Source: Clostridia bacterium
GTDB lineage: Bacteria; Bacillota_A; Clostridia; UMGS1883
Assembly (NCBI GenBank): GCA_017467965.1
Contig: JAFUJZ010000023.1
Coordinates: 1 to 29,921, forward strand
Reading direction: 5' to 3'
DNA: 29,921 nt
In this document: positions 6,659 to 17,254 of the stretch, in pieces
How the letters are laid out: each line of letters opens with the position of its first letter
Numbering within the stretch: position 1 is the first letter of the stretch
Made by a program: the position numbers and the translations under genes
The notes under the pieces: generated by a model
Told to the model about the DNA's origin: nothing
Seen by the model: only the letters and a program-made list of their open reading frames with translations
Database searches by the model: none

Positions 6659-7447
6659 TCACCCAAAAATTGTTCCGATTTCCTTTTCTTCAAATATTTC
6701 ATAAATATCGCGAGGCTCTTCGGCAGAGCACACAATGGTTTTAATATTTGCCTCAGATGCAATACGTGCCGCATAAAGCTTTGTAATCATACCGCCGGTA
6801 CCCCTACTTGACCCTGCAGAACCGCCAAGTGCAAGGATATCGTCAGTTATCTCTTCAACCTGACTTATAAGGCGTGCAGAGGGATTTTCGCGAGGATTTG
6901 CATCGTACAAACCGTCAATATCGGTAAGTATAACCAATAAATCGCTCTCCGACAACACTGCTACATAAGCAGACAAGGTATCGTTGTCACCAAACTCGAT
7001 TTCCTCTGTTGAAACAGCGTCGTTTTCGTTAACAATCGGCACAACGCCCATTTCAAGGAGTCGACGGAAAGTATTATGCGCATTTACTCTGCGGTCATCA
7101 TGCTCAATTGCGTCCTTTGTCAGAAGCACCTGTCCGGTTATATGACCGTATTCAGAGAAAAGCTTATCGTAAAGATACATCAGCTCGCACTGACCTACTG
7201 CCGCCGCAGCCTGCTTACTGGGCATATCCTTTGGTTTTTCACTAAGAGCAAGTTTGCCCACGCCTACTCCGATAGCACCGCTGGAAACCAATACAACTTC
7301 CATGCCGCGGTTTTTTAAATCTGCTATAACACGCACAAGGATATCAATTTTATTTATATTCAATCTGCCGTTAGGATATGTAAGAGAGGATGTACCTACC
7401 TTAAAAACAACCCTCTTTGTTTCCTTTAAGCCTTCACGTAAATTCAT
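6659..7447 (-). CDS. proB: Glutamate 5-kinase, short form without PUA domain
   Basis: ProB phosphorylates glutamate at the gamma-carboxyl group, the first and usually feedback-inhibited step of proline synthesis. The amino-acid-kinase fold is seen from VVFKVGTSSLT through VSSGAIGVGVGKL and NENDAVSTEEIEFGDND to GTGGMITKLYAA. At 262 residues it lacks the C-terminal PUA domain of the E. coli enzyme, as in several Firmicutes. The frame is open back to a TTG at 7462, but AAGGTG lies exactly 6 bases before the ATG at 7447, so that ATG is chosen. The stop lies just before the proA start, so translation is probably coupled. No promoter or leader element is obvious in the short gap to the upstream gene's terminator. 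Confidence 0.96.
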   Translation of the reverse strand: MNLREGLKETKRVVFKVGTSSLTYPNGRLNINKIDILVRVIADLKNRGMEVVLVSSGAIGVGVGKLALSEKPKDMPSKQAAAAVGQCELMYLYDKLFSEYGHITGQVLLTKDAIEHDDRRVNAHNTFRRLLEMGVVPIVNENDAVSTEEIEFGDNDTLSAYVAVLSESDLLVILTDIDGLYDANPRENPSARLISQVEEITDDILALGGSAGSSRGTGGMITKLYAARIASEANIKTIVCSAEEPRDIYEIFEEKEIGTIFG

Positions 7448-15995: not shown

Positions 15996-16036
15996 AAAAA
16001 GCAACACCATTCCGTTAAGAACAGTGTCGCTTTTTT
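15996..16036. terminator. Terminator after tRNA-Pro
   Basis: The arms AAAAAGCAACAC and GTGTCGCTTTTT pair with one G-U position. On the minus strand the hairpin follows the tRNA CCA end and is followed by TTTTT. It lies between the tRNA and the lipase-like gene, so expression of the latter may depend on read-through or on a weak promoter here. Confidence 0.75.
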
Positions 16037-16112
16037 TGGTCGAGGTGACAGGACTCGAACCTGCGGCGTCTTGCTCCCAAAGCAAGCGCGCTACCAACTG
16101 CGCCACACCTCG
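16037..16112 (-). tRNA. tRNA-Pro (anticodon TGG)
   Basis: A full cloverleaf can be drawn on the minus strand. The acceptor stem is CGAGGTG/CACCTCG, and the D-arm is GCGCAGTTGGTAGCGC. The anticodon arm CTTGC-TTTGGGA-GCAAG has TGG at the anticodon, and the T-arm is GCAGG-TTCGAGT-CCTGT. The discriminator is A and CCA is encoded. A terminator follows. Its own upstream flank is an AT-rich 20 bp next to a palindromic insert. The apparent promoter is farther upstream, in front of a broken copy of the tRNA 5' end. Confidence 0.97.
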
Positions 16113-16131
16113 AAATATTAACTTGTATTTT

Positions 16132-16258
16132 GGTAGCGCGCTACGCACGCTTCCGTTTGCGGTGCCCGACATCAACTGCCCTTCGGTTGTTGCTTGTCGA
16201 CCGCGGCACAACCCTGCACCCTCGCTCAATCGTCCGCCGGACGCGCTCGGGTTCGGTT
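16132..16258. repeat. Structured GC-rich insert between a broken and an intact copy of tRNA-Pro
   Basis: About 127 bp of GC-rich sequence lie between the tRNA-Pro 5' fragment and the intact tRNA gene. It begins with a perfect 12-bp palindrome (GTAGCGCGCTAC, 16133-16144). It contains a long foldback around 16163-16208 (GTGCC-CGAC...CAAC paired with GTTG...GTCG...GGCAC) and a CGTCC-GCC-GGACG hairpin near 16231-16243. It ends with GCTCGGGTTCGGTT against the broken tRNA. No protein frame of note is present. It looks like a REP/MITE-like element or a structured RNA. Confidence 0.65.
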
Positions 16259-16277
16259 CCAACTGCGCCACACCTCG
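16259..16277 (-). pseudogene. Broken 5' copy of tRNA-Pro
   Basis: Nineteen bases, CGAGGTGTGGCGCAGTTGG, are identical to the first 19 bases of the intact tRNA-Pro (16112..16094). The AT-rich flank just upstream (AGGTAATATAT) also resembles that of the intact gene (AGTTAATATTT). After GTTGG the sequence changes abruptly into the GC-rich insert. Confidence 0.85.
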
Positions 16278-16292
16278 ATATATTACCTATAA

Positions 16293-16321
16293 ATTATAAC
16301 TTATCAAAAATAAAAAAGCAA
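16293..16321 (-). promoter_or_regulatory. Promoter of the tRNA-Pro unit
   Basis: On the minus strand TTGCTT (16321..16316) and TATAAT (16298..16293) are 17 bp apart. The predicted start lies about 9 bases before the broken tRNA copy. The transcript would therefore carry the tRNA fragment and the palindromic insert as a leader of the intact tRNA. Confidence 0.75.
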
Positions 16322-16374: not shown

Positions 16375-16558
16375 ATGGGAAAGAAGGTTTCCCATATAAA
16401 ATCGACAGGGCAATCGTATTGCCCTGTCGAAAGTAGCGATTTTAGGGGGCTATCATGCCCCTTGTACGAGAAATCGCTACTTTGTTCATTATAAAACTCC
16501 AGACCGCAAAGATTGCCAACGCAAGATTTGAGGTCGCGTGTCGATTTTTTCGACACGC
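16375..16558. repeat. Cluster of four perfect hairpins downstream of the DUF4956 gene
   Basis: No gene lies between 16322 and 16561. The stretch holds four perfect inverted repeats. They are ATGGGAAA/TTTCCCAT at 16375-16395; TCGACAGGGCAAT/ATTGCCCTGTCGA at 16402-16430; AAGTAGCGATTT/AAATCGCTACTT at 16431-16482, with an inner GGGGC/GCCCC; and GCGTGTCGA/TCGACACGC at 16536-16558, immediately after the DUF4956 stop codon. Only the last could end the DUF4956 transcript, and it lacks a U-tract. The rest look like a mobile palindromic repeat or a structured RNA. Confidence 0.8.
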
Positions 16559-16561
16559 TCT

Positions 16562-17254
16562 TTAGTCTGCCAAATCGCTCGCAAGCGTAAGGGATATTTT
16601 GAGGTTACCATTAAGTGTTCTGAGTTCGTCCATAAACTCTTTTTCGCTTATGTCCTTTTTTACTTTTACGTCAAACACCAGTTCAAAAAGTGTACCGAGG
16701 TCAATATTCATAACCTTTAAAAGCTCGTACTTATTGCAATACTTGTTGAGCACCGGCTCAAACACGCCTTCGTAGTTTAAATCTTCGGGAATAACAATTT
16801 TAAGCTTTTTTGTTGTATGTGCAGGAGCAAAAAGATTGAGCTTTGTAAGTATGATTATAAACAAGCTGAGTGCAACAACACCGATTACCGACACAAGGTA
16901 TGCGCCTGCGCCCACTGCAAGGCCTGCCGCAGTTGCAAAAAGAACATAAGCAATGTCTTTAGGCTCCTTTAAGCTCATTCTGAATCTGATTACCGCCAAT
17001 GCACCCGCAAAGCTGAAAGCACCTGCTACGTTTTCGCCCACAACCATGATTATAACGGAAATAATGGTGCACATCATGATAAGGGTGATTACAAAGGACT
17101 GTGAATAGCCAAAACCCGAGTGGGTAAACTTGTACACCAAGCCTATAACCAAGCCTAAAACAAAGCTCAAAATAACTGCCGTTAACATTCTTGTCCAGTC
17201 AACGTCACTTGTGGTTGTCGTTGTCATAATATTATTTAACCATTCCATTTTCAT
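16562..17254 (-). CDS. DUF4956 membrane protein, partner of the VTC-domain protein
   Basis: This 230-residue protein matches DUF4956. Membrane helices fall at about 22-42, 53-73 and 104-140, with the conserved block GAFSFAGALAVIRFRMSLKEP around residues 78-98. A soluble C-terminal domain of about 80 residues follows, starting near KLKIVIPEDLNYEG. The family is nearly always next to a VTC-domain protein, as here, where the genes overlap by 23 bases, which implies translational coupling. The role of the pair in bacteria is not settled; polyphosphate synthesis coupled to a membrane channel or sensor is a guess by analogy to the yeast VTC complex. AGGAGG precedes both ATG 17254 (3 bases) and ATG 17248 (9 bases), so the real start may be 17248. 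Confidence 0.88.
   Translation of the reverse strand: MKMEWLNNIMTTTTTSDVDWTRMLTAVILSFVLGLVIGLVYKFTHSGFGYSQSFVITLIMMCTIISVIIMVVGENVAGAFSFAGALAVIRFRMSLKEPKDIAYVLFATAAGLAVGAGAYLVSVIGVVALSLFIIILTKLNLFAPAHTTKKLKIVIPEDLNYEGVFEPVLNKYCNKYELLKVMNIDLGTLFELVFDVKVKKDISEKEFMDELRTLNGNLKISLTLASDLAD

Follow-up and report, generated by a model that had tools for sequence, protein, structure and literature searches.

The window, i.e., the whole stretch of 29,921 nt analysed here, contains a single intact tRNA-Pro(TGG) gene, found by both ARAGORN and Rfam at positions 16112–16037 on the minus strand. Read along this strand, the locus opens with a promoter-like pair and a short AT-rich leader; the 5′ end of the tRNA then appears as a 19-nt copy, followed by the GC-rich insert, an antisense arm of 13 nt, a diverged leader and the complete tRNA-Pro with CCA. 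The individual features are:

16293..16321, minus strand: presumed ancestral tRNA-Pro promoter (TTGCTT, 17 nt, TATAAT), read directly and with a counterpart at the related locus L001; now upstream of the interrupted copy
16259..16277, minus strand: exact 19-nt copy of the tRNA-Pro 5′ end, from the acceptor strand to the D-loop GG, where the element starts (sequence comparison)
16152..16260, minus strand: core of the structured, probably mobile repeat, from the shared GG to CAAACGG+A (match to model R1, copies in relatives, covariation)
16144..16152, minus strand: AAGCGTGCG, where the tRNA D-arm may continue past the element in sense orientation, though diverged; suggested by direct reading against other upstream-type copies
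16130..16142, minus strand: 13-nt segment antisense to the intact tRNA, spanning the insertion point; its complement is 16085–16097 (inverted repeat, 100%)
16113..16123, minus strand: second, diverged copy of the short tRNA leader (repeat comparison)
16037..16112, minus strand: intact tRNA-Pro(TGG) with encoded CCA (ARAGORN, Rfam)
15996..16031, minus strand: probable tRNA-Pro terminator, read by eye and absent from the scan calls

The first 19 nt of the tRNA are repeated exactly at 16277–16259 (20 nt if the preceding T is counted) and the complete gene lies downstream, as a preliminary description of this DNA had it. The insert of ~107 nt was also correctly described there as GC-rich, its core having a GC content of 0.65 compared with 0.38–0.48 per kb across the window. 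At its 3′ end, GTAGCGCGCTAC, tRNA sequence had been thought to resume. At least in part, this piece repeats a tRNA arm in inverted, antisense orientation: AGCGCGCTACCAA (16142–16130) is a perfect 13-nt inverted match to the intact tRNA. A duplication of the AT-rich flank is present but weaker than claimed, covering only ~11–12 nt, mismatches included. Just upstream of the tRNA promoter, at 16402–16480, lies a separate palindromic repeat, CGACAGGGCAATACGATTGCCCTGTCG together with a AAAGTAGCGATT.../...AATCGCTACTTT hairpin; by eye, a similar unit hosts the element copies L024 and L028 in genome G002.

The promoter that was proposed to face the 19-nt copy is legible directly in the sequence as a TTGCTT/TATAAT pair (16321–16293) with a counterpart in L001, yet it is missing from the consensus promoter scan. 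The scan instead scored an overlapping TTGATA/TAATAT site (16307–16280, 9/12) and gave one promoter-like site in all, compared with 0.5 expected from shuffles. As the same scan listed no promoter in the interval from the insert to the intact tRNA-Pro, we infer that the gene is likely transcribed through the insert, and on this ground it is plausible, as suggested earlier, that the intact tRNA is cut from a longer precursor with a structured leader. The terminator assigned to the gene is plausible by eye (arms at 16031–16024 and 16007–16000, followed by T4), but it is not among the calls of the scan. The predicted precursor folds with a z-score of −2.19, and 5 of 200 shuffles were equally stable. 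In its centroid fold, 12 bases of the 13-nt arm pair with the D-arm of the intact tRNA; in the minimum-energy fold the arm pairs elsewhere, mainly with the sequence directly before it.

Syntenic loci were located via the neighbouring gene (window 16562–17254) in two Clostridia drafts (L001 and L002), along with the distant L003. L001 is an empty site: its single tRNA-Pro(TGG) has a promoter and leader resembling those of the window but no insert, and both tRNA parts of the window overlap on the same 30 bp of it. L002 has one uninterrupted tRNA-Pro, also without the insert and in inverted orientation. The genomes behind these loci, G001 and G002, gave one match each to the window tRNA-Pro, and the remaining genus genomes compared, G004 and G005, gave none at E ≤ 1e-8. 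Because L001 is empty and L002 lacks the insert, the insertion at tRNA-Pro is specific to the lineage of the window among the relatives compared. At L002, where the tRNA-Pro(TGG) at 6723–6798 is inverted relative to both the window and L001, the local sequence order is altered.

With the insert and its flanks as query, 12 places were found in G001 and 21 in G002 (E ≤ 10, weak ones included); in G003 there were 6 places at E ≤ 10, none of them convincing (best E 0.12). A covariance model, R1, was built on 16 cores taken from the window, G001 and G002; the window copy, itself one of the 16 rows, scores 123.2 bits. R1 gave matches in 12 of the 21 genomes that share the family of G001 (E ≤ 0.01; G007 and G017 with one weak match each), in 14 of 28 genomes of the order (E ≤ 1e-4) and in 42 of 391 genomes of the class (E ≤ 1e-5, stricter filters), and a DNA pattern gave eight stretches on six IMG/VR contigs. 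The preliminary description had suggested a small mobile element that rebuilt its target, and both the syntenic empty site and the dozens of dispersed copies agree with this: the insert is neither conserved at the locus nor unique to it.

The 137 copies analysed consist of 60 at the family level (window included) and 77 from the class level and viral contigs. The former were used out of 61 matches, two pieces of one interrupted L020 copy having been merged. The latter were used out of 82: L133, L135, L138 and the first L139 row, which have the same flanks as L132 or L137, were left out, as was the second L139 row, a distinct, truncated copy, and L134 lay outside the R1 search. Tandem and contig-end duplicates were otherwise retained. 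The core starts with GG in 92 of the 137 copies.

Covariation was evaluated in alignments of the core. In A2 (MAFFT, 16 cores, not structure-fitted) 97.0% of the cells are paired and 16 of 29 pairs have two-sided changes; covariation is 0.474 compared with 0.181 after shuffling, a score reached by 0 of 500 shuffles, and slid structures collapse, with the caveat that the structure comes from these very rows and is thereby favoured. Further pair types show no excess in A2, being reached by 323 of 500 shuffles. In A4, which holds 77 distinct class-level and viral-contig rows, 94.3% of the cells are paired and 26 of 29 pairs are two-sided (matched by 2 of 500 shuffles); covariation is 0.619 versus 0.161 (0 of 500) and further pair types were matched by 10 of 500, where none of the rows is from the window, G001 or G002, the sources of R1, but the alignment is fitted to R1. 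From these comparisons the element core has a conserved predicted fold that covaries strongly. When pairs with G-U as the commonest type are omitted, G-U exceeds A-C on the strand used (29 vs. 9 in A4, 24 vs. 12 in A3 and 6 vs. 0 in A2), which mildly supports this strand as the folded one. The reported self-complementarity of the insert is seen as covariation across copies, but not in its own folding energy, which is ordinary (z −0.82 for the insert and 0.08 for the window core; 1 of 5 cores folded below −2).

No family of Rfam 15 matches the element, and in the window only tRNA lies above the gathering score. At relaxed thresholds, with 16 loci given, the element had only sub-gathering, chance-level matches at its edge (S774 and rli62 in the window, or the edge of L011); apart from these, there were tRNA matches, one to Gut-1 at another place on L022 and weak ones. 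The plasmid and phage collections searched held no DNA similar to the insert. A literature search, with passages of PMC9755519, PMC8040213 and PMC2864571, gave no description of the repeat, although the candidate lists of PMC8040213 may contain it unnamed. The elements apparently form an undescribed, structured family in Clostridia that strongly prefers tRNA genes.

Eighty of the 137 copies lie at most 500 bp from a tRNA gene, a count that hinges on ARAGORN and on flanks ending at contig ends. This compares with 153 of 5930 placements (2.6%) near a tRNA in a small control, 61 kb in 20 same-family loci that had been chosen for unrelated reasons and of which one carries all 8 tRNAs. The copies show a target bias towards tRNA genes, and those concerned are for Pro, Leu, Arg, Met, Asn, Ser, Lys, Gln, Trp, Thr and Glu. 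All but one of the linked copies (79/80) are on the same strand as the tRNA (binomial p 1.3e-22, with related and tandem copies treated as independent), 57 of them downstream and 22 upstream of the intact gene. The sole opposite-strand copy is at the tRNA-Ser of G001 (L011) and has its GG run on the opposite strand.

The break points that could be mapped in the tRNAs are in the D-loop (sense 5′ part ending at 16–19), the anticodon arm (28–40) and the stretch from the variable arm to the T-arm (51–64); in tRNAs for Ser the sense 3′ part starts as late as position 75. Downstream copies have the order intact tRNA, flank, segment antisense to that tRNA, short sense piece, element, sense 3′ part. 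In 60 of 79 copies (52/57 downstream and 8/22 upstream) the inner flank matches its own tRNA in antisense better than any other isotype, and in 59 of 79 the outer flank does so in sense. Where a downstream copy has a clear 3′ part, the antisense segment spans the start of that part in 29 of 36 cases, and it is the strongest tRNA-like match in 29 of the 57 downstream copies. The window copy is of the upstream kind, with its perfect 13-nt antisense arm. As an origin of the duplicated leader, a retroposed, transcript-limited pre-tRNA leader was set aside, since leader lengths seemed to vary between loci in flanks compared by eye.

The other 57 copies are without an intact tRNA within 500 bp. In 17 of these the flanks score at least 32 against tRNA pieces, compared with a peak of 28 for shuffled flanks (sense only); the remaining ones lie elsewhere or are unassigned, e.g., in phage-like palindromes and at guaA-like 3′ ends. 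The palindrome, AGCTCCCCT..AGGGGAGCT, that the element interrupts on phage-like contigs is also present uninterrupted on the same contig, GG being shared at the site. In L132, L133 and L139, copies are seen within AGCTCCCCT..AGGGGAGCTGTC palindromes, and the genes on either side look structural when judged by eye. At L079, L162, L194 and L196 the element recurs in several genomes at the 3′ end of a gene that we take, from its peptide end, to be guaA. We also scored hairpins in the flanks of the 127 of 137 copies with enough sequence. A score of at least 22 in the left 90 nt was obtained for 12 of 79 tRNA-linked copies, 8 of 48 others and 8 of 277 controls, and in the right 90 nt for 19, 7 and 8, respectively, a separation of copies from control that is modest only.

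A tree of 55 of the 60 family-level cores mixes genomes and loci; many of its forks are weak, with 18 of 52 inner branches well supported and 12 open. Two copies of G018, at tRNA-Gln and tRNA-Arg, are 96% identical over 159 nt and 0.0096 apart in the tree. Near-identity at two tRNA genes points to movement, and the sequences suggest that this was recent or, alternatively, that the two loci recombined. The Pro-TGG-linked copies of G018, G020 and G022 cluster in the tree, and such tRNA-linked groups spanning genomes suggest old insertions, with retained function also fitting. Tandem copies exist as well, e.g., at the tRNA-Leu of G002.

Taken together, we consider it probable that the repeat is a small (~107 nt), non-autonomous mobile structured element of Clostridia, which needs its fold for spread and favours GG in hairpins, above all those of tRNA genes. 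It would insert next to GG, on the GG-carrying strand, with a preference for hairpin-forming DNA, chiefly tRNA genes. A single-ended event appears likeliest, with a clean join to the target at one end of the element; at the other, the strand end would fold back and copy the tRNA arm, giving rise to the antisense arm. A template switch to the flank would then copy an intact tRNA gene. For the transposition chemistry we infer a helper acting in trans, via a single-stranded or RNA intermediate, and joining at GG. Survival would act as a filter: tRNA genes are essential, so only insertions that leave a working tRNA would persist. At the loci that survive, an additional, partial tRNA copy would contain the element, and a short fold-back copy of the disrupted arm would often link it to the intact gene.

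A smaller share of our belief goes to a class-wide structured RNA family that lives as tRNA-gene chimeras, with the core in a broken tRNA copy beside an arm antisense to the intact tRNA. It might act on that tRNA through folding, processing or decay, or it might spread by RNA- or ssDNA-based copying for which tRNA arms serve as targets. We found no description of an element or RNA of either kind.

Somewhat more doubtful is that element and antisense arm form a functional regulatory RNA module, where the arm would pair with the tRNA or pre-tRNA and the core recruit a protein, thereby tuning tRNA maturation or amount. The location of 79 of 80 tRNA-linked copies on the tRNA strand would fit such a module, as would the inner flanks that are best antisense to their own tRNA (52/57 downstream) and span the start of the 3′ part (29/36). 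The distinctive antisense arm is found in only 8 of 22 upstream copies, however. The 13-nt arm of the window complements the intact tRNA perfectly and has 12 bases paired with it in the precursor centroid, but it pairs elsewhere in the minimum-energy fold. The module is absent at tRNA-Pro of two close relatives, the kinds of tRNA vary, 57 of 137 copies have no intact tRNA nearby, and copies also occur in phage-like palindromes and at guaA-like 3′ ends.

Mobilisation of a REP-like element by a RAYT-like Y1 tyrosine transposase would fit the hairpin preference and the single strand polarity. REP hairpins are smaller than the core of the element. Like REP/BIME and other RAYT-mobilised repeats, the element is short, non-coding, dispersed, folded and strand-polar; unlike them it has a larger, multi-helix core and is located at tRNA genes. 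Of the 21 family genomes, 13 have Y1 transposases and 11 have RVT_1, and neither follows the carriers, so that Y1 transposase and RT are unsupported as partners. Y1 frames of 250–305 aa, presumably RAYT-like, are present in the carriers G005, G016, G018 and G020, but also in the non-carrier G006, and shorter pieces (183 and 124 aa) in the carrier G002; one frame, of 284 aa, reads through its locus. No element was found in any of the Y1 loci searched (L092–L101). A Y1 match is missing from the carriers G001, which has 12 element copies, G017, G019, G021 and G022, drafts that may be incomplete. We regard the RAYT reading as improbable. At the RT locus L111 of G005, a single case, one element copy, already counted above, lies ~1.4 kb from the RT domain.

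It is still less credible that the repeat is the guide-RNA scaffold of an IscB/TnpB-type nuclease. Its compact, RNA-like folded core and target-related flanks recall HEARO/IscB omegaRNA, likewise a structured RNA of mobile elements, but RF02033 matched neither the element nor the window nor any locus tested, in line with the lack of any Rfam match, and no associated nuclease was found. PF07282 (TnpB-type) has matches in 4 of 21 family genomes, over the cut-off only in G006, a non-carrier, and G007, which has one weak element match; the other 11 carriers in the family, high-copy ones included, have none over the cut-off. The RRXRR (IscB-type) search gave 0 of 21 family genomes, with 0 of 14 controls giving signal.

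Plain recombination between tandem tRNA copies without any element, the other origin considered in the preliminary description, would explain the direct and inverted tRNA pieces at the locus, but we give it almost no credence, as the same folded core is found at many differing sites, non-tRNA ones included, and beside Leu, Ser, Arg, Met, Asn, Lys, Gln, Trp, Thr and Glu tRNAs.

As a putative mobile element, the repeat can be compared with two further known systems. With MITEs and mini-elements such as nemis/Correia, BOX and the Rickettsia palindromic elements it shares the lack of an ORF of its own, many copies and a position in or near genes, and it is, as these are, dispersed, non-coding and multi-copy. 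In contrast to them, its ends are GG...CGG only, with no evident terminal inverted repeats and apparently no target duplication beyond GG, and it shows RNA-type covariation, favours tRNA arms and is accompanied by antisense fold-backs. tRNA-att integrative elements resemble the window locus in that a tRNA gene is interrupted yet regenerated by a duplicated end. In those elements the att duplication is of the 3′ end, whereas the window duplicates the 5′ end; furthermore, ~107 nt is too small for an integrase, the breaks are in D-, anticodon and T-arms, and an inverted arm is often present. No integrase family was found among the 8 neighbouring ORFs scanned, 3 of which are without any family.

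Given that tRNA genes are essential and some of them single-copy, repeated insertion of an element into tRNA arms, with an intact copy remaining alongside, is unusual. The finding extends beyond one locus, the repeat often being beside or inside tRNA-gene pieces in related gut bacteria and commonly next to an intact tRNA copy, and in gut Clostridia the element gives rise to broken pseudo-tRNA copies that turn up in draft genomes. As the family has a covariance-supported fold, lacks an Rfam match and can be searched for with a simple model, its spread, its helper and its effect on tRNA expression are directly testable.

Two further repeats were observed alongside the element. At L050, L051, L056 and L061, another dispersed family (CGCCCCTGCGAGG.CGTT ... 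GGGGGAATCG.AACCCC ... CCAAAAGNAC) seems to host it in several species. At L082 (1226–1500) and in the right flank of L075, a second element-like unit with a longer hairpin (GAGCGTATAAAAACGATTGATAATCGTTTTTAGCGA...) is located beside tRNA genes in G018.
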